The position numbers were made by a program, and so were the translations under genes. A DNA stretch of 22,586 bases from a virus: positions 1 to 22,586 of IMG/VR virus record IMGVR_UViG_3300036766_000790; one strand, 5' to 3'. Below the pieces are notes generated by a model, which made no database searches, was not told the DNA's origin, and worked only from the letters and a program-made list of their open reading frames with translations. The stretch's first letter is position 1. Each line of letters starts with the position of its first letter. Below are positions 7,761-18,237 of this stretch, one piece after another.

Positions 7761-10177
7761 TTATGTGCTCAATGTGCAGCGTAGGTTGAACACCCATGTA
7801 TCGTTAGTGATACGGGGGACTTCAGCGAACTTATAGCCGACACTTGCGTTCAGAGCTAATGGACCATCATAAATGGGTGGTCTGTAGATGAACTGCGCAC
7901 TGTATGCATCCTGCTCGATAGCTGCAAATGCTTCACGGCCTGCAATAAAAATATTGTAGACAGTAGCACCTAACAGAGAGGCATCGATAGTCGATGACCC
8001 AATCGAAGAGAGCAAGAAGCGGACGTTAGCGACCGTTCCCCACTCCGCATCCAAGGTGGATTGCTGGTTTGGGTAATTCCATTTTTGGATGAACCCGTTT
8101 ACGTTGTCCAACTGACCAATTAAGTCAGTATGACCGAGGCCAAAATAGGCATCGCGTACTGGAGCTGTTCCAAAACGATCCTGACCTTCAACACCGGTCA
8201 AGAAGCTGTAGGCATTGTTGCCACGCAGCGTCTTGATTACGTTGTCGACGTCGGAACGGGTGATTTCCGTTGGGTTATCCAAGATCTGTTACTTGTATGA
8301 CCTAGACTACAAACATCTAGGCGAGGAAGCCTATTGCACTTCCCTCACTCAGTTACCTGAGTGTTCAGAGCACCGCATCCCCTTTCGGGGTCTTCTCGCT
8401 TGCTACGTTCAGGCTGAAAACGCTACTCTTTAAAAAGAATTTTATTTCTTCTTTCTTCGATAGCTATTAGACGGCCGTGAAAATCCTTCGATTCTTCTGA
8501 CCACTTTTCCCTGAATTCTTTCAAATCTCTCTCATATTTTTGAGAATCTGATCTAAGAGTTAAAAAAATTCCAACAAAAGTTAAAAACAAAATTAAAAAT
8601 TGACTCCAATCCACAATTACCTCGGAATCATTATATCAGTTTTGTTCTCATTTATCTATTTTTTCTTGCCCCTTGTTGTCCTAAGCTGCTAGGAGTTCCA
8701 AGTCAATTAGAGAAGATTTAAAGACGGCAATAAACCCATTTTGTCTACCGTCTGTACCGCCTGTGCAGTTGATGAACGATGATGTTGATGCCAACATGTC
8801 GCGCATTAACTGATCCTCTGTCTGTCTACAATCTGTTAACCCTCTTACGAGGAGACCGATCATTTCTGCCGATCTCTCTATGTTCCCATAGAGTTCAGAG
8901 CACCGCATCCCCTTTCGGGGTCTTCTCGCTTGCTCGTTTACGGTGGCTTTCGCCTTCCGCAGTGTTGTCCGTTCTGGACTTCCACCTCAACCAGAGAAGA
9001 TTTAATGTCGCCTAGCCATTAAGCGACACTCCCAAACGTTGGGAGGCTTCGTTTAATACCATTTCTGTTACTTTTATGACCTATTGCTAGGCGGGCCAAC
9101 CTCTTCGGATCAACCTCTCTATGTCTCCATAGAGTTCAGACTGTCGCATCCGCTTACGCGGCCAACACACTCAGTCGTTCACGGTGGACATTAATCTTGC
9201 TTTCATTTATTATCGTACCATAATCAACGTTAGGAGATATATGGCTAGGATAGTTCAATTTACCAAAGATCAGACCCCAACCCAACTTGCATACCTTGCG
9301 GGCATTGTTGATGGAGAGGGATGTTTTTACTTTGGGAAAGTCAAACAAGGAAGATATGGAAATGGAACGCAATGGCATTGCAAGCTTGCTGTTACAAGCA
9401 CAGACAAAGCGTTGACAGACTGGTTGAATGATCTTTTTGGAGGCACAAAAGAACAGCAGTATAGATACACCAGCAAAAAAGCTTTTGAACGACCCATACA
9501 TAGATGGGATGCTTCTGGTCTCATGCTGGACTATATCTGTCCTAAAATACTTCCTTTTTTGATCATTAAGAAACGCCAGTGTGAAACCATGATTGAAATC
9601 AGAAAAACATATGCAAATATAGGAAATCAACGTCTTTCCGACCAAGTTGTGGAGAAAAGAAATGAATTCCTTATAATTATGCATAATCTGAACTCTAGGT
9701 TCCATAGTCATCCTCTTAAGCAACATTAACACCTTCCGCCCTGTCACCCTCGGCTTTACGTTAGGGCTTCCAAGTCAATCAGTGTCGGTTTAAAGATCCC
9801 ATATTAAATTTAGGATCTTGGTTTTGGAGCGTTACTTGCTCATTGAGCAGTATATACGTCAATCACTCCAAATCACTTACGGCACGTTCCCTGCACTATG
9901 CAGCCAATTTTGAACCGTAAAAATCCATCGTCGCATCGATATTCACCGATGTCAGAGTTTGGGGAGGAGGGGTGATACCACTATTCCCCAGTGGTACTGG
10001 CGCGGTCGCCAGTGGGTTGTATCGTCTCATACGCAGCGTAGTACCGCCGTTCCGTGGCATGGCCTTAAGATCCGCAGGGATCTTGTGGATCATGTACGGG
10101 ACTGGAACCGAAAGCAGCTTAAAGGAAAAACTTTGCTGCACCGGCGCTGGTAAGACTGATGTCGTTGTAATAGACAT
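7761..10177 (-). CDS. Major capsid protein (N4-gp56 family), five exons split by four group I intron insertions
   Basis: The joined product has 316 residues from exons 10177-9914, 9859-9812, 9059-9022, 8828-8747 and 8279-7761. Reading on the spliced frame gives MSITTTSVLPAPVQQSF... DFYG / TYILLNEQVTLQNQDP / VLNEASQRLGVSL / RQTEDQLMRDMLAST... TGGTDG / DNPTEITRSDVDNV... and ends PRITNDTWVFNLRCTLST. I recognise this as the N4-gp56-type coat protein by PAPVQQSF, LKAMPRNGGTTLRMRRYNPL, LRQTEDQL and AQFIYRPPIYDGPLA. Every junction falls where the protein family is normally continuous, and each unspliced form meets stops at once. Exon 4 begins mid-codon (CT/T) but the frame is restored exactly. An AAGGA site lies upstream of 10177 and the scaffold gene precedes by 21 nt. 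Productive capsid requires splicing of all four insertions. Confidence 0.9.
8363..8404. repeat. 42-bp repeat shared by introns d and c (copy 1)
   Basis: This stretch is identical to 8893-8934 over 42 bp and covers the P8 hairpin and the flanking P7/S strand of the intron core. The rest of the two introns diverges, so this block is either under strong constraint or was recently copied between them. Confidence 0.9.
8423..8614 (-). CDS. Intron-encoded small membrane protein
   Basis: The product has 63 residues from a GTG at 8614, with GAGGT about 6 nt upstream. It has one N-terminal membrane segment (FLILFLTFVGIFLTL, residues 6-20) followed by a charged, coiled-coil-like cytoplasmic or periplasmic helix (KYERDLKEFREKWSEESKDF... 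IAIEERRNKIL). It lies on the splicing strand within the large loop of intron d and has no LAGLIDADG, GIY-YIG or HNH motif, so it is not an obvious homing endonuclease. Membrane topology resembles small phage accessory proteins (holin-like, exclusion or spanin-like), but nothing assigns it to any of these. It could be expressed from the unspliced transcript or from the excised intron. Confidence 0.55.
   Translation of the reverse strand: MDWSQFLILFLTFVGIFLTLRSDSQKYERDLKEFREKWSEESKDFHGRLIAIEERRNKILFKE
8829..9021 (-). ncRNA. Group I intron c in the capsid gene (193 nt, ORF-less)
   Basis: The exon end GTCGCT (9022-9027) pairs with the guide GGCGAC (9007-9012), with a U.G at the splice site. P10 is the guide-adjacent CTA pairing with TAG at the start of the next exon. 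The intron ends in G at 8829 (...AACAGATTG). Core elements read on the minus strand: GGC-GAAA-GCC peripheral hairpin, an R-like stretch ACCGTAAACGAGCAAG, P8 CCCC-GAAA-GGGG, P7 GAGC with GCTC, and P9 CTCTATG-GGAA-CATAGAG. It is the most compact complete-looking ribozyme here. Insertion is after the second base of Leu116, and splicing restores LGVSLRQTEDQL exactly. Confidence 0.9.
8893..8934. repeat. 42-bp repeat shared by introns c and d (copy 2)
   Basis: This is the second copy of the block at 8363-8404, in intron c. Intron b keeps the same layout (P8 hairpin CCGC-GTAA-GCGG at 9150-9161) but with different bases, showing that exact sequence is not required for the fold. Confidence 0.9.
9060..9811 (-). 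ncRNA. Group I intron b in the capsid gene (752 nt, hosts an antisense homing endonuclease)
   Basis: The exon end GATCCT (9812-9817) pairs with the guide GGGATC (9795-9800), with a U.G at the splice site. The guide-adjacent AATAT (9801-9805) pairs with GTATT at the start of the next exon (P10). It ends in G at 9060. The core shows R-like GTGAACGACTGAG and S-like GACAGTCTGAAC forming P7 (9172-9175 with 9139-9142), P8 CCGC-GTAA-GCGG (9150-9161) and P9 CTCTATG-GAGA-CATAGAG (9117-9134). The endonuclease gene is inserted in the loop that is a small GGC-GAAA-GCC hairpin in intron c, between GGTG and CACC strands. Confidence 0.9.
9241..9729 (+). CDS. LAGLIDADG homing endonuclease, encoded antisense to its host intron
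   Basis: The product has 162 residues. The signature helix LAYLAGIVDGEGCFYFGKV (residues 19-37) carries the LAGLIDADG-type motif with the acidic D/E metal ligands. Only one such motif is clear, so the enzyme probably works as a homodimer. The downstream beta region (WHCKLAVTSTDKALTDWLNDLFGG) and LDYICPKILPFLIIKKRQCE fit the family fold. The ATG at 9241 has AGGAG 4-5 nt upstream and is preferred over the longer frame from 9184. It runs on the plus strand while the intron and capsid gene run on the minus, so it cannot be translated from the capsid transcript and needs its own promoter. Its expected cut site is the intronless junction in the capsid gene. Confidence 0.9.
   Translation: MARIVQFTKDQTPTQLAYLAGIVDGEGCFYFGKVKQGRYGNGTQWHCKLAVTSTDKALTDWLNDLFGGTKEQQYRYTSKKAFERPIHRWDASGLMLDYICPKILPFLIIKKRQCETMIEIRKTYANIGNQRLSDQVVEKRNEFLIIMHNLNSRFHSHPLKQH
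9860..9913 (-). ncRNA. Mini group I insertion a: 54-nt P1/P10-only intron without a core
   Basis: This lies between capsid residues Gly88 (exon end TTTTTACGGT) and Thr89 (ACGTATATA). It is exactly 54 nt and holds in-frame TAG and TGA, so it must be removed or bypassed. The exon end TTACGGT (9914-9920) pairs with GCCGTAA (9877-9883) over 7 bp with a U.G at the splice site, as in the other three introns. ACGT just 5' of this guide (9884-9887) pairs with ACGT of the next exon (9856-9859) as P10. The insert ends GATTG, like intron c. A CTGCA-TAG-TGCAG hairpin sits in the P1 loop. There is no room for P3-P8, so self-splicing in cis is not expected. Confidence 0.75.
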
Positions 10178-12947: not shown

Positions 12948-14963
12948 TTACTGCGTCACAGTTTTTATATCGGATTTTTGCTCGGCTTTCTCGTCTTCTT
13001 GGAACATTTTAATCAGTTGAGCTACCTTGTGTAACTGATCTATATCTATGTTAATCAGTTCTTTAGCAGCTTTAATGCGGTCCAATGTGCCCGTGTCGCG
13101 ATCGTGTTGAGCCTGCGCCATACGTTCAACCGCAAGAGCCCTATTTTCTTCCACGCGAGATACTCGCTCGATGCCGAGCCCTTGATTAGCCGCAGCGCGA
13201 GCGTGCATATCCTGAATTTGAGCCTTGAGAAGCTCGATCTGAGTCTGCTGTTGCTGTTGAGCCATCTTAGCTTGCTCTTCCTCTTGTTTTCCAAGAGCCT
13301 CGATGAGATCGTTTTTGTTAGTGAGAGTTGATGTCTGAACAAGGATTGCTGCGGGGACTGGGACTCCGCTCTCTCTGAGTTGAAGTAATTGGCCAAATTC
13401 AAGTTGCCGCTGAGTAGAGGTATTAAGCCCCTCCTCGACAATAGCGTCATATCTACCGAATGCCCGGTTGTAGAACTCCGGAGTGGGTTCTTCCTTGATA
13501 ATACGCTTTACCTTGCCAGGAGTCCAATTTGCTTGCATGAGGTCGATCTCTAGCTGGCCTAGAAGCTTTGTGGCAAAGTCCAGGTTATCGAACAGGCCTT
13601 GGAGCGTCGTGAGGCCTGCTCCCTGACGGAGCATAGAGAGAACTCCCGCCTTATCATCTTGTGCAGAACCTAGAAGCTCCTCATTTACACCGGAGATCTG
13701 CTGGATCTCCTGGCCTAGAAGCTCGCTCAACTGGATCATAGAGGGAGGGATCTGCGCAGGCATGATCTTCTGTATATCTGTGGCGATATTCGCATTTGCC
13801 TTTAGAGCAAGTCCACGACCTTGGCCTTCCAGGAAGACATCCTTAGGATTGACTAGGGCATTTTCCTTATAGATCCATCCAGAATTTACCTGTGACTCAA
13901 GGATGTCTAACTCAATAATGCGACGACGATTATAGAGATACTGAGCATCACGAATGCCTCGCACAACGCCCTGAACGCGCCAGGGGAAATACGGGATCTC
14001 AGGCTGGTAATAAGCCCAAACAGGCACAAAAGGATAGCGATCAATGCCAAGGGGATTAGGCCCATGATACATCACTCGTCCTTGAACAACGATTGCCAAC
14101 TTGACCGTAGGTACGTCTTGGTCCAAGACCATGATGTTTGGATACATTCTATTAAATTCTGCCAGATCTTCATCTTGTCCTTTCCATTCCATTGTTTCGC
14201 CTGTCTGCGTATCGCATAACACCTTTTGCTTACGCATCGACAGGTACCAGAACTCATCATAGATGAGTAAATCTTGCATGCCATAATTGTAGGACTCTGG
14301 CATGAACTGAAATTTGCCGTCGCGATTGCCCCAGCCGCGCATATCTTGGATATCTTGCGAGCGGCCAGGAAGAAGCGCTTTTACCTGCTCGCGAGAGACA
14401 TACTTACGAGTCCAGACCGAATTGCAGTCGGACATATCCATCTTTTTGAAATAGGGATCTATAAGGTATCCATTGTAGGAAACGTTGTCTACGCAAATAT
14501 CCCCGTTGACGGGGTCTTTGCGGTAGTCCATCCAGACAGAGAGAAGGTTCATGCCGGAACAGACAGCGCCTCCGAAAGCATCACTAATCGTTTGCAGCGC
14601 GCCGCCATGCTCGTTTACGTGGAAGAGGCATTTGGTGAACTGGTCGGCCGTCTGCTGGGCGCTGCCTTCGATCGGGGTACAGAGGATGGACTTGCGGTGC
14701 TGCCTCTGATAACCGGTGATCATGCTGTGCACACGTCTTATCCGGTTAAAACTAAACTGGCGCTTACGGAATGCCGGCAAGTTGCCGTAGATATCGTTAT
14801 ACATGCTCTGATCACCAGCCAAGAAACGATTGTCTATGTCCGCCTCTGACCAAAACGACTGGTTGATCTGGATGTTTTTTGCGTATGTATAGTCCATCAA
14901 CTTAAGTATGTTATGGTCATTGTCCACGTAGAAGGACTCGGTCAGCTGAGGGAACATTGTCAT
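12948..14963 (-). CDS. Portal protein (P22-type)
   Basis: The product has 671 residues. Motifs of the P22-like portal class include the N-terminal AFRKRQFSFNRIRRVHSMITGY (residues 64-85), RYPFVPVWAYYQPE (309-322), VRGIRDAQYLYNRRRIIELDILE (334-356) and the highly conserved SGVNEELLGSAQDDKAGVLSMLRQGAG (424-450). A Gln/Glu-rich coiled coil (EEEQAKMAQQQQQTQIELL, 561-579) and a helical C-terminus would form the barrel region. It forms the dodecameric DNA channel at one capsid vertex and docks the terminase and adaptor. The start at 14963 has AGGAA upstream. Residues 409-466 have a recoded duplicate in the plus-strand island at 15505-15678. Confidence 0.9.
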   Translation of the reverse strand: MTMFPQLTESFYVDNDHNILKLMDYTYAKNIQINQSFWSEADIDNRFLAGDQSMYNDIYGNLPAFRKRQFSFNRIRRVHSMITGYQRQHRKSILCTPIEGSAQQTADQFTKCLFHVNEHGGALQTISDAFGGAVCSGMNLLSVWMDYRKDPVNGDICVDNVSYNGYLIDPYFKKMDMSDCNSVWTRKYVSREQVKALLPGRSQDIQDMRGWGNRDGKFQFMPESYNYGMQDLLIYDEFWYLSMRKQKVLCDTQTGETMEWKGQDEDLAEFNRMYPNIMVLDQDVPTVKLAIVVQGRVMYHGPNPLGIDRYPFVPVWAYYQPEIPYFPWRVQGVVRGIRDAQYLYNRRRIIELDILESQVNSGWIYKENALVNPKDVFLEGQGRGLALKANANIATDIQKIMPAQIPPSMIQLSELLGQEIQQISGVNEELLGSAQDDKAGVLSMLRQGAGLTTLQGLFDNLDFATKLLGQLEIDLMQANWTPGKVKRIIKEEPTPEFYNRAFGRYDAIVEEGLNTSTQRQLEFGQLLQLRESGVPVPAAILVQTSTLTNKNDLIEALGKQEEEQAKMAQQQQQTQIELLKAQIQDMHARAAANQGLGIERVSRVEENRALAVERMAQAQHDRDTGTLDRIKAAKELINIDIDQLHKVAQLIKMFQEDEKAEQKSDIKTVTQ

Positions 14964-15217: not shown

Positions 15218-15508
15218 ATGGGGATGGTGAAAAAACCTAATATCGACACGAAGATTTTCAAGAGAGACGATCTCCCAGATCATGTGCTCGAGGAGATCAA
15301 TATTCTCACGGATGAGATTTTAAAGGTGGTTGTACCTACTTTGAAAAATGCGAACTCCATGAATAACGCGATGGCCTCCCTCACGTGGATCCTCTCACTA
15401 ATCGTTAAAAACTTCGTCGCGGAGGCTCACCAGCAAAAAACAGCTCTGAGGACTGCAGAGACTATCTTGAAGAACCTCGAAGAAATCGAACCCATTAGAA
15501 GAATATGA
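15218..15508 (+). CDS. Hypothetical protein, 3' end altered by an insertion
   Basis: The product has 96 residues (MGMVKKPNIDTKIFKRDDLP...) and is helical (ASLTWILSLIVKNFVAEAHQ, then TALRTAETILKNLEEIEPIRRI). GAGGTG lies 5 nt before the ATG at 15218; a second ATG at 15224 has AAGGA upstream and is equally likely. The last codons lie in the 26-bp direct repeat that borders the captured portal fragment. Without the insertion the protein would end ...EPIRRNG and its stop would overlap the ATG of the next gene (ATGGATAG). The insertion changes the end to ...EPIRRI. Function is unknown. Confidence 0.65.
   Translation: MGMVKKPNIDTKIFKRDDLPDHVLEEINILTDEILKVVVPTLKNANSMNNAMASLTWILSLIVKNFVAEAHQQKTALRTAETILKNLEEIEPIRRI
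15478..15503. repeat. 26-bp direct repeat flanking the portal fragment, left copy
   Basis: The same 26 bases occur at 15674-15699 and bracket the 170-bp portal-derived segment. The repeat belongs to the end of the upstream gene, so it looks like a target-site duplication or a template-switch footprint left when the fragment entered. Confidence 0.9.
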
Positions 15509-15846
15509 TTCAGCTTAGTGAACTCCTTGGTCAAGAGATCCAGCAGATCTCCGGAGTCAACGAAGAGCTATTAGGATCGGCTCAAGATGATAAAGCGGGT
15601 ATTTTGTCCATGCTTCGTCAAGGAGCTGGTCTGACTACTCTTCAAGGATTGTTTGATAATCTTGATTTTGCCACGAAGAAATCGAACCCATTAGAAGAAA
15701 TGGATAGAGGCTACCATCTAAATCGCGTGATGAAAAAATGTCCCGATTGCGGAGCCGATGTCGGAGAGACCCACAAAGATGGATGCGATAGACCTTTATG
15801 CTCCTTTTGCGAGGAGCCTAGAGCGTCTTGCGAATGCGAGGAGTGA
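15505..15846 (+). CDS. Chimeric ORF: captured portal segment fused to a zinc-ribbon protein
   Basis: The frame encodes 113 residues. Residues 1-58 equal portal residues 409-466 with one change (Val441 to Ile), yet by eye about 39 of 174 bases differ, nearly all at silent positions. Residues 59-65 come from the 26-bp repeat and residues 66-113 are the native small protein (MDRGYHLNRVMKKCPDCGAD...), which has Cys pairs C-P-D-C, C-S-F-C and C-E-C likely to bind zinc. The native start would be the ATG at 15700 or the one at 15730. The ATG at 15505 overlaps the stop of the upstream gene (ATATGA), so the fusion could be translated by coupling. A free portal segment could interfere with portal assembly; this is conjecture. 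Confidence 0.6.
   Translation: MIQLSELLGQEIQQISGVNEELLGSAQDDKAGILSMLRQGAGLTTLQGLFDNLDFATKKSNPLEEMDRGYHLNRVMKKCPDCGADVGETHKDGCDRPLCSFCEEPRASCECEE
15674..15699. repeat. 26-bp direct repeat flanking the portal fragment, right copy
   Basis: This copy is identical to 15478-15503 over 26 bp and is followed at once by the ATG of the zinc-ribbon gene (15700). In the fusion frame it is read as KKSNPLEE. Confidence 0.9.
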
Positions 15847-16001
15847 TGAAAGAAGATCATGACACCCACAAGAAAAAGTATTCGGAGCACTGGGACGCCT
15901 GGTACTGCGAAACATGCAACGAATGGCTCGAAGAGAATTGCGGTCAGATCAAATGCGAATTCTGCGCTATGCGCCCCGAGAAACCTAACAAAACAAAATG
16001 A
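15846..16001 (+). CDS. Small zinc-ribbon-like protein
   Basis: The product has 51 residues: MKEDHDTHKKKYSEHWDAWY, then CETCNEWLEENCGQIKCEFC and AMRPEKPNKTK. The two C-x-x-C pairs (21/24 and 37/40) are spaced as in a zinc ribbon. Its ATG overlaps the stop of the previous gene by one base (TGATG), so the small Cys-rich genes are translated together. Possibly a transcription or nucleic-acid-binding accessory factor; no family is recognised. Confidence 0.65.
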   Translation: MKEDHDTHKKKYSEHWDAWYCETCNEWLEENCGQIKCEFCAMRPEKPNKTK

Positions 16002-16023
16002 TTAATAAAGGAATTAAGTTATT

Positions 16024-16176
16024 ATGGAATGTATTGTTTACGAAATTCAAATGGACAGAGAATTCTTTTTAGACAAAATCATTCTGTTCCTCGAATATGG
16101 TGAGGCAACACAAGAAGAGATCCGGTACGTGATCACTGGCCTAGAACAACGTATGGCGCCATCGTCCAGCGGTTAA
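16024..16176 (+). CDS. Possible small protein overlapping tRNA-Glu
   Basis: The frame encodes 50 residues (MECIVYEIQMDREFFLDKII...QEEIRYVITGLEQRMAPSSSG). The first 44 or so look protein-like and helical, while the last codons lie inside the tRNA gene, so the 3' end is probably accidental or the tRNA arrived in the tail of the gene. An AAGGA lies about 11 nt upstream. Function is unknown. Confidence 0.45.
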   Translation: MECIVYEIQMDREFFLDKIILFLEYGEATQEEIRYVITGLEQRMAPSSSG

Positions 16177-16226
16177 GACCCCCGCCTTTCTAGCGGAGAA
16201 CCCCAGTTCGATTCTGGGTGGCGCCA
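16155..16226 (+). tRNA. tRNA-Glu (anticodon TTC)
   Basis: The cloverleaf is complete: acceptor GGCGCCA with TGGCGCC, D-arm with AGCGGTTAA, anticodon loop CTTTCTA between CCCGC and GCGGA (outer pair C/A mismatched), T-arm CCCAG-TTCGATT-CTGGG and discriminator A. No CCA is encoded. Phage tRNAs supplement host decoding or replace tRNAs cut by host defences. Confidence 0.9.
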
Positions 16227-16230
16227 ACAA

Positions 16231-16302
16231 CCCTTGGTAGCTCACCGGTAGAGCGCTTGACTGATAACCAAGCGGCAGCTGGTTCAATTCCAGCCTAAGG
16301 GA
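16231..16302 (+). tRNA. tRNA-Ile (anticodon GAT)
   Basis: Acceptor CCCTTGG pairs with CTAAGGG (one G.U), D-stem GCTC/GAGC, anticodon loop CTGATAA on a CTTGA/CCAAG stem with the inner A/C mismatch, T-arm GCTGG-TTCAATT-CCAGC, discriminator A. It starts 4 nt after tRNA-Glu and lacks an encoded CCA. The two are very likely cotranscribed and processed. Confidence 0.88.
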
Positions 16303-16385: not shown

Positions 16386-16465
16386 TTTACCGGTAACGCA
16401 GTAAAATTACGGATTATTGTACGATTCGATGGAATTATGCATGATTTTACTGCGTTACCGGTAAA
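16386..16465. repeat. 22-bp perfect inverted repeat with 36-nt spacer
   Basis: The arms at 16386-16407 and 16444-16465 are exact reverse complements, centred on an ACCGGT core in each arm. It lies in the gap between tRNA-Ile and the 3' end of the large terminase gene (stop at 16477). It is longer than a usual terminator and lacks a T-run. It could be a convergent-transcript barrier, a protein-binding or recombination site, or a replication element; nothing decides between these. Confidence 0.85.
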
Positions 16466-16476
16466 TAACCAAAAAT

Positions 16477-18237
16477 TTAGAACGATGACCCATATGATTG
16501 AGGATCTTGGAAGAACCTTGGAAGAACCTTCCCATGTCCCCTTGACTCTGAATAAGCACGTTCAATATCTTGAGGAGATAGCGGAACGCCTGCACTCTCG
16601 AAGAAATGAGAAAAAATTGCATAACGAAGGGCGTCGCAGTTCTTAGTTATAATGCCATTTGCAACCATTGTCCCGTTTATTTTTGAGGCGAGACAGTAAA
16701 CATCTTCAAGGCCCCCTCTCTTTATCGACCTTATTTTTACGCCAAGAGGCTCGCTTAGAGCAGGATTTTCCACAGAATCTTCCTTTCGCATATTTATAGA
16801 GCAGTTGGTGGGACATGTATATACTACATCGCAAAGCGTCAATTGCTGCAGCTGGAATAGACCTCTCTGCGTCATCACCCGATGATCACCCGTAGCACGC
16901 AATACCTTTCCATCCTCCAATTCAAGTTCATAGATCTCGGCATTTTTTCTTGTTAAACAAGCGTTTAATCCTAAGTCACTTTCAATTTTATTTGTCTGTA
17001 GATTGTAATTTATCAATCCAAAGTGAAAGAATTCCGGAAAATGTATATCAGAAATAGGAACCTCACCGAATGAGAGAAGAATTTTTGTATCCCCCGTCAC
17101 ACAGGCGTGATCATTCTCCTTCAGAGGACGGTCAACACCCAGCTTATTGCTCTTCGGATCCCATACATAGCTCTGAAATTGAGCAACTGTATTCTTGCAT
17201 TGCCGGCATATCTTCAAGGTACCCTGAGTTAGATGCTGAGCTACTAGACGTATACCGTCTAGCACTTCGTTTTTTGCCTCGAACAAGCTGTCAATGTTAC
17301 GCTTGCCTAACTCTAGACGAAAGGATGCGGCGGAAGGGTCGATATATATGGCTTTGATCGGCTTCCACTTTAGGAATAGCTCCAAATCATTCGCGTACTC
17401 GTAATCGGTCTTCTGCCTCTGAGAGATCTTGGAGTCGAAGTAGTACTCGCTCTCCACCCACATGTTAGGCCAATGGTCATAGTTAATGCCTATGAGCACA
17501 CACGCGAAAGCATTAGAGGTTCCATAATCTATGCCTGCGATATAGTGAGTGGCTGGATGCGTTGGATAGTCGATGCAGTGGATTGAGGGATCGAAGAAGT
17601 CGTATACAGCCCCTTCAGCCTGCACCCACTTACCTTCGATGAACCGTTGATACCATAAACCGGAGTACTCTTGTTTGATCTGCTTGACGAATTCCCCGCT
17701 GAGGCTGGGGTTGTCCTCTATCTTAAACTCCCAGGTGAGGAGATCCAGGTCGGCGGCCCTATCGAGAAAGTCGCGTCTGAGCCAATGGTACGGGCTGTCT
17801 GGGTTTGTTGTGGCGAAAAGCTTGGCACCGGGGAGCGAGAGCCTGCTCAAGAGCATTTTGAAAAACGTCTCTGGGAGGAGTGTGGCTTCATCGATGTAAG
17901 CGCCTACAAAGGTACTTCCCCTTATCTTCCCTTCCGAGCGAGCATCGTTGGCGCTTACGACGTAGATTTTGCGCCCTAAAATCTCCATTTCCTGCTTGCC
18001 GATGTAGTATTTAACAAAATCGCCCAGTATATCTCTCATAGGATCGATTATATTGCGTGCGATAGTGTGGTTGGTGCGCCCCACCACTAGAAGCGGTCCT
18101 GGAGGCCCGAAACGGCAAAAATGGAGAAACCGCCATAAAGCAGCGTAAGACTTGCCAGATCGCACCGCTCCCTGCCATATATTGATACGAGCCTCGGCCT
18201 CTCGTATAGAGCGGACCTGTTTTTCCGACATATCCAT
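16477..18237 (-). CDS. Terminase large subunit with an in-frame intein
   Basis: The frame encodes 586 residues; without the intein (379-533) the mature protein has 431. The ATPase domain shows Walker A GAVRSGKS (23-30), Walker B VGAYIDEAT (111-119) and the coupling motif ATTNPDSP (142-149). The nuclease domain shows AGIDYGTSNA (234-243), AIYIDPSA (296-303) and the last metal-ligand motif DHA/CDALRY, which is split by the intein. The enzyme packages and cuts DNA at the portal. The start Met1 lacks a strong ribosome site; Met3 is possible. It sits downstream of the small subunit with a 218-nt gap. Nuclease activity needs intein removal, because the intein lies directly between the conserved His-Ala and Cys-Asp. 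Confidence 0.92.
   Translation of the reverse strand: MDMSEKQVRSIREAEARINIWQGAVRSGKSYAALWRFLHFCRFGPPGPLLVVGRTNHTIARNIIDPMRDILGDFVKYYIGKQEMEILGRKIYVVSANDARSEGKIRGSTFVGAYIDEATLLPETFFKMLLSRLSLPGAKLFATTNPDSPYHWLRRDFLDRAADLDLLTWEFKIEDNPSLSGEFVKQIKQEYSGLWYQRFIEGKWVQAEGAVYDFFDPSIHCIDYPTHPATHYIAGIDYGTSNAFACVLIGINYDHWPNMWVESEYYFDSKISQRQKTDYEYANDLELFLKWKPIKAIYIDPSAASFRLELGKRNIDSLFEAKNEVLDGIRLVAQHLTQGTLKICRQCKNTVAQFQSYVWDPKSNKLGVDRPLKENDHACVTGDTKILLSFGEVPISDIHFPEFFHFGLINYNLQTNKIESDLGLNACLTRKNAEIYELELEDGKVLRATGDHRVMTQRGLFQLQQLTLCDVVYTCPTNCSINMRKEDSVENPALSEPLGVKIRSIKRGGLEDVYCLASKINGTMVANGIITKNCDALRYAIFSHFFESAGVPLSPQDIERAYSESRGHGKVLPRFFQDPQSYGSSF
16639..17103 (-). other. Mini-intein in the terminase nuclease motif (155 residues)
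   Basis: The intein starts at Cys379 (block A CVTGDTKILL), has block B around ATGDHRVMT with the T-x-x-H residues (Thr449, His452), block F near EDVYCLAS and block G VANGIITKN, ending at Asn533 followed by Cys534 of the C-extein. No endonuclease domain fits between blocks B and F, so it is a mini-intein that cannot home by itself. The penultimate residue is Lys532 in place of the usual His, which in many inteins helps Asn cyclisation; some natural inteins lack it and still splice. Boundaries follow from DHA/CDALRY continuity. Confidence 0.9.

Follow-up and report, generated by a model that had tools for sequence, protein, structure and literature searches.

How did a piece of a portal gene come to lie, flanked by direct repeats, in the DNA of a phage that also carries an intact portal gene, and does it have any function there? 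The locus belongs to a tailed phage represented by a single metagenomic virus record of IMG/VR; the window, i.e., the whole stretch of DNA analyzed, is this 22.6 kb record (22,586 nucleotides). The piece is part of a plus-strand cassette with the order 96-codon gene, portal fragment, two small Cys-rich open reading frames (ORFs), and tRNA-Glu/tRNA-Ile. The coordinates are collected in Table 1.

Table 1. Features of the insertion locus, its surroundings, and interrupted genes (window positions, except in the last row).
Feature	Position	Strand	Basis or remark
Upstream small cargo gene, 96 aa	15218..15508	+	ORF list; 3' end is the source of the 26-bp repeat
Left copy of the 26-bp repeat, taken as the original, at the end of the upstream gene	15478..15503	+	Repeat search
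58-codon portal segment, residues 409-466	15505..15678	+	Codon alignment, DNA match, PF16510
DNA probably captured	about 15504-15673	+	Last bases of the segment (CGAAG) common to the right repeat
Right copy of the 26-bp repeat, taken as the duplicate, read in another frame	15674..15699	+	Repeat search
Zinc-ribbon-like small ORF, 48 aa	15700..15846	+	ORF list; fused 113-aa ORF is 15505-15846
Homologous segment in own portal gene, residues 409-466	13566..13739	-	Codon alignment, DNA match
Own intact portal gene, 671 aa, P22-like	12948..14963	-	PF16510, E 3.1e-80; about 250 bp from the cargo cassette
Cargo cassette between TerL and portal, ending in tRNA-Glu and tRNA-Ile	15218..16302	+	ORF list, tRNA search, relatives
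TerL	16477-18237	-	On the other side of the cassette from the portal
Apparent capsid exon 1, residues 1 to about 104	from 10177	-	Comparison with L170
Apparent capsid exon 2, residues 105-117	9059-9021	-	Comparison with L170; 39-nt exon
Apparent capsid exon 3, residues 118-144	8827-8747	-	Comparison with L170
Apparent capsid exon 4, residues 145-316	8279-7764	-	Comparison with L170
Portal interruptions in relatives	L050:1383-1558, L103:1957-2168, L127:8668-8891, L048:10174-10373		Same intron-like core, near residues 41-58, about 175-225 bp

The 58 codons of the segment specify the same residues as the phage's own portal at 57/58 positions, the one exception being a V-to-I change at codon 33, and 39 of the 174 bases differ (135/174 identical), so that 37/58 codons are changed. 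Five of the differences fall on first codon positions, none on second and 34 on third positions; 23 are transitions and 16 transversions. A chance likeness is excluded, since the two segments match as DNA within the record with E = 1.8e-36. In profile searches the segment aligned with positions 375-431 of the 594 positions of the P22-like portal family PF16510 (E 3.5e-9) and was also matched by phrog_156 (E 2.3e-7). It belongs to the family by these 58 residues, but with only 57 of the 594 profile positions it is not a second P22-like portal gene and encodes no ring-forming protein. The first-pass annotation, made from the sequence alone, had described a 58-codon portal fragment with one conservative change and about 39 altered bases, lying in frame with a downstream zinc-ribbon gene between two copies of a 26-bp sequence from the end of the upstream gene; its coordinates, counts and frame were all right, and both repeat copies are exact. 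Outside its view lay the placement of the portal gene on the opposite strand, by which the fragment is inverted relative to its parent gene, and the state of the silent sites described below.

The 26 exact nucleotides are the core of a direct repeat of 29 nt at 97% identity (15475-15503 / 15671-15699). The upstream gene ends AGA ATA TGA, and the ATG of the fragment overlaps that stop as ATGA; the piece itself starts one base before the natural Met codon. From this ATG the reading frame is open for 113 codons, crosses the right repeat in a frame different from that of the left copy and continues in frame into the zinc-ribbon ORF. With the insert removed (one repeat copy joined to the right flank), the upstream gene would end ...IEPIRRNG* and not ...IEPIRRI*, and its stop and the following start codon would overlap in ATGGATAG, in the usual manner of a phage gene junction. 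Because the insert-free reading restores this junction, we infer that the left repeat copy is the original and the insert the newcomer.

By the codon comparison, the silent sites of the fragment are completely randomised with respect to the own portal. Codons agree at 21/58 positions, the number expected from random back-translation with the codon usage of the window (21.6 ± 3.3), and fourfold sites are identical at 5/26, no better than between unrelated portals. Therefore, the fragment was not copied recently from the portal gene now present and almost certainly derives from another portal allele. Its silent codons are nearer to those of the relatives L118 (55%) and L170 (27/50) than to those of the own portal (19/55). 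At 0.38, third-position GC in the fragment lies below that of the own segment (0.60) and below expectation (0.53; P 0.014), a value as low as in 9% of same-sized windows in the phage's genes, which would fit a donor with other codon habits. For a long unchanged run of 20 nt (GAGATCCAGCAGATCTCCGG), no gene conversion is claimed, as it would arise by chance in about 8% of cases by a rough estimate (6 unchanged codons at 36%, 58 positions).

A protein preserved over scrambled codons is the ordinary state of this portal segment in the family, as was seen from a comparison of 124 distinct segments of relatives and the two of this phage. Several pairs of relatives with 56/58 identical residues share 28-33% of silent codons (28% for L051-L064, from whole portals), further pairs of whole portals combine a conserved protein with randomised codons (L126-L151, L083-L086, L115-L133, and L133-L151), and the portals of L033 and L026 have 57/58 identical amino acids at 77.6% nucleotide identity, the same value as between the fragment and the own portal. 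With 57/58 identity and fully saturated silent sites, the fragment and the own portal stand at the outer limit of the family: none of 3410 comparable pairs reaches 57, and 12 reach 55 or more. Deliberate recoding was thus rejected as the cause of the silent change, relatives showing the same pattern; ordinary purifying selection on a conserved portal segment accounts for it, and no special recoding is needed. The view that silent-only divergence reflects selection on the protein stands to this extent, but there is nothing special in it, since related IMG/VR portals behave likewise. More generally, silent-only copies that look 'recoded' can be the normal look of related portals in this conserved segment, which calls for caution.

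The repeats date the insertion. They differ at 0 of 26 bases versus 22% of bases in the portal segment, and at the divergence of the segment the chance of 26 unchanged bases would be about 0.001 (0.776 to the power 26). Because the repeats are identical while the segment is so diverged, the insertion is younger than the divergence; judging by these two figures, it is recent, far younger than the split of the two portals, and the divergence arose elsewhere. An old duplication in place, long kept by selection while its silent sites drifted, is hardly credible: silent-only change fits selection on the protein, but the repeats, of which one forms the end of a gene in its reading frame and the other is read differently, have stayed identical. 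The first-pass conclusion that the piece is no simple local duplication is supported, and so is a single, younger event for the insertion between the repeats.

A donor was sought in several collections. In the IMG/VR matches listed for the own portal and the fragment protein, no donor was present; the best protein match was 54/58, and the best DNA match was 84% over 125 bp. Among the searchable IMG/VR records, an exact 20-mer of the fragment retrieved no donor portal, a degenerate search for DNLDFATK at the fragment end retrieved nothing, and GQEIQQISGVNEELLG retrieved three contigs, none of them the donor. INPHARED phages yielded no donor portal, and none of 9 loci with a related portal in GTDB genomes was the donor. 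As records very close to the window may have been kept out of the searched sets, the absence of a donor is weak negative evidence. Of the proposed origin in a related phage, what holds is a source portal that was diverged but conserved in protein; the donor itself did not appear in IMG/VR, INPHARED or GTDB. Three of the 9 GTDB loci, L159, L162, and L163, were binned with Chlamydiota (Parachlamydia, Chlamydiia, and Simkaniaceae), hinting at environmental chlamydiae as hosts of this phage family, with the reservation that the bins may be wrong.

The source could also have been the phage itself, the piece being a fossil of its former portal allele, inserted by an inverted template switch within one genome, after which the resident portal was replaced by homologous recombination. 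In favour of this, a portal gene of opposite orientation lies very close to the piece (with the parent segment at a distance of about 2 kb), the protein of the piece is closest to the own portal (57/58, versus at most 54/58 for others among the matches listed), and the phage encodes ERF recombination functions. However, two events are required, and the own portal gives no sign of being a newcomer, its third-position GC being 0.54 versus 0.42-0.54 in the structural genes; we consider this history unlikely.

No second record with the junctions was found, and a 25-mer of the repeat occurs in no other searchable IMG/VR record. With a single metagenomic record at hand, one has to consider that a second portal allele from the same sample was built into the contig by chimeric assembly or as an amplification artefact. 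However, both joins would have to offer the assembler long shared words, and these joins share at most about 5 bp, as judged against the own portal. Moreover, a chimera would require two switches at a distance of 170 bp, with an exact return by 26 bp, and would have to prevail in the coverage. An artefact is accordingly improbable, even more so than a former allele.

Proteins of the upstream gene and the zinc-ribbon ORF have no relatives in IMG/VR, and the search for an empty site with a single 26-bp copy, suggested in the first-pass annotation, gave none at the base level in that collection. The closest phage found, L170, has a portal 70% identical to that of the window and a capsid protein 88% identical over the longest piece. 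In the same hotspot, upstream of the portal and, as in the window, on the opposite strand, it has a gene distantly homologous to the upstream gene (23/88 residues identical, 26%), which no portal piece follows. This arrangement agrees with a recent insert, at an identity (26%) too low for a base-by-base empty site.

The gap between TerL and portal is a hypervariable cargo hotspot. Opposite-strand genes of varying content occupy it in L159, L084, L114, and L003, and lie beside the portal in L170; because the gap is a hotspot in several relatives, an insertion is tolerated at this site. Among the hotspot ORFs, a metallophosphoesterase-like one in L170, an RNA-ligase-like one in L003, and a nucleotide-kinase-like one in L159 were recognized by eye. 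In the window, the upstream 96-aa gene had no Pfam, PHROG or NCBIfam match above the cut-off, and the zinc-ribbon ORF showed weak similarity to small Cys-rich mycobacteriophage proteins (E about 0.7). An opposite-strand cassette of small genes between TerL and portal, present in many relatives, resembles the moron or cargo genes between late genes of tailed phages, but a portal piece was not seen as a cargo gene in any other relative. Just downstream of the tRNAs, a 33-bp inverted repeat (16386-16465, 88% complementary, 14-nt loop) is possibly a two-way terminator between convergent genes. TerL itself contains a mini-intein (residues 379 to about 534, ending ...IITKN/C), recognized by its intein N-terminal region (TIGR01445, 39 bits versus a cut-off of 24.5).

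Does the piece recur? A full-length portal search of 168 related loci, which are not all distinct phages and mostly come with several kilobases of flank, found one portal in each and no second portal piece, so the piece is unique among the loci examined. Portal matches were split in four loci (L048, L050, L103, and L127), by insertions in one portal near residues 41-58. Breakage of these portals by captured portal pieces was rejected, the insertions being intron-like.

Similar interruptions were seen in the window itself. The major capsid gene (7764-10177, minus strand) appears in four exons that are contiguous in the intact gene of L170. Each of the three interruptions has a group I intron-like core (AACGACTGAGTG...GACAGTC and AACGAGCAAGCG...GTGCTC) with a covarying P7-like pairing; Rfam did not detect these cores. 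Inside the first interruption, on the opposite strand, is a LAGLIDADG-like ORF (9184-9729, plus strand; Pfam E 0.006, below the cut-off), and 26 related loci have similar ORFs, frequently in the capsid region on the downstream side of the portal.

No positive evidence of function was obtained for the portal piece. The own portal, modelled with AlphaFold at a mean pLDDT of 73, has helices at residues 407-424 and 438-479 with a low-confidence loop between them; the fragment starts near the beginning of the first helix and stops 13 residues short of the end of the second. In terms of this model, its right edge would ignore structure, as expected of a random breakpoint. The fused ORF may be translated; the 113-residue product was modelled with low confidence (mean pLDDT 48.5). 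The overlap of the start codon with the upstream stop and the common frame with the next gene are compatible with chance (a few percent to one in ten by a rough reckoning) and would also fit selection for expression.

The first-pass annotation had offered a dominant-negative role against a competitor or inert capture debris. In its fuller form the former would be a decoy kept by selection, the 58- or 113-residue product binding portal monomers of a competitor or a portal sensor of the host. The start-stop overlap, the open frame, the in-frame zinc-ribbon fusion, and the position in a cargo hotspot speak for it, but a protein equal to the own portal is expected to disturb the carrier as much as a rival, no relative among the 168 loci keeps such a piece, the piece ends mid-helix, its product is modelled poorly, and the insert is too young for an open frame to reveal selection. 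A decoy is therefore very unlikely: neither recurrence nor separate conservation was observed among these loci, and debris is the better of the two readings. No relevant paper on portal fragments as dominant negatives was found in the literature searched. Still more speculative is a selected, silently scrambled portal segment within a translationally coupled portal-zinc-ribbon fusion, which would hinder co-infecting relatives in assembling their portals or would occupy a portal sensor of the host, its scrambled codons protecting against inversion with the own inverted portal gene. Most likely, the piece is inert.

Known mobile elements do not describe the insert. A transposable element with target-site duplication was rejected: there is no inverted repeat at the insert ends and no recombinase inside, and the portal gene is the only other copy in the window. 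A homing intron, intein or endonuclease element was rejected as well, the insert consisting of portal codons only, with no Rfam match there.

We regard it as probable that a diverged portal segment, most likely that of a co-infecting relative, was captured illegitimately into the cargo hotspot, with a 26-bp target duplication. One illegitimate-recombination event would have brought about 170 bp of a diverged portal allele into the end of the small cargo gene and doubled 26 bp of the target in the process. Its most likely source is a related phage that replicated in the same cell and whose portal gene was copied. In line with such an event, the phage encodes an ERF recombinase and a YqaJ nuclease. 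The insertion probably proceeded by template switching or by the fill-in repair of a staggered break. A nascent strand would have quit the target after ...AGAAGAA and continued on donor portal DNA, from the Met409 codon as far as about codon 466; a short shared CGAAG would then have helped it back into the target, at a point 26 bp upstream of its exit. The right edge of the fragment coincides with the CGAAG that donor and target would share; as compared with the own portal, such sharing at the right join requires ACG AAG in the donor, and at the left join no more than one base beyond the segment is shared. The outcome would be a short ORF with its start overlapping the upstream stop, fused to the zinc-ribbon ORF, that most likely does nothing. 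Such capture would have parallels in mosaic phage genomes and in bacteria, in whose genomes about 10% of small variable segments are reported to be flanked by direct repeats (PMC2884548): there, as would be the case here, a short foreign segment enters, the joins need no homology, and direct repeats occur. Here, by contrast, the source gene and the site belong to the same phage family, and the 26-bp target duplication surrounds a scrap of a portal gene.

By itself, the captured portal piece reveals no new system. As a recent and clean trace of what is probably illegitimate recombination, it records a piece of an otherwise unseen portal allele, probably of a co-infecting phage. It also illustrates how scraps of genes, equipped with ready start codons, come into a cargo hotspot, as raw material for new phage genes.
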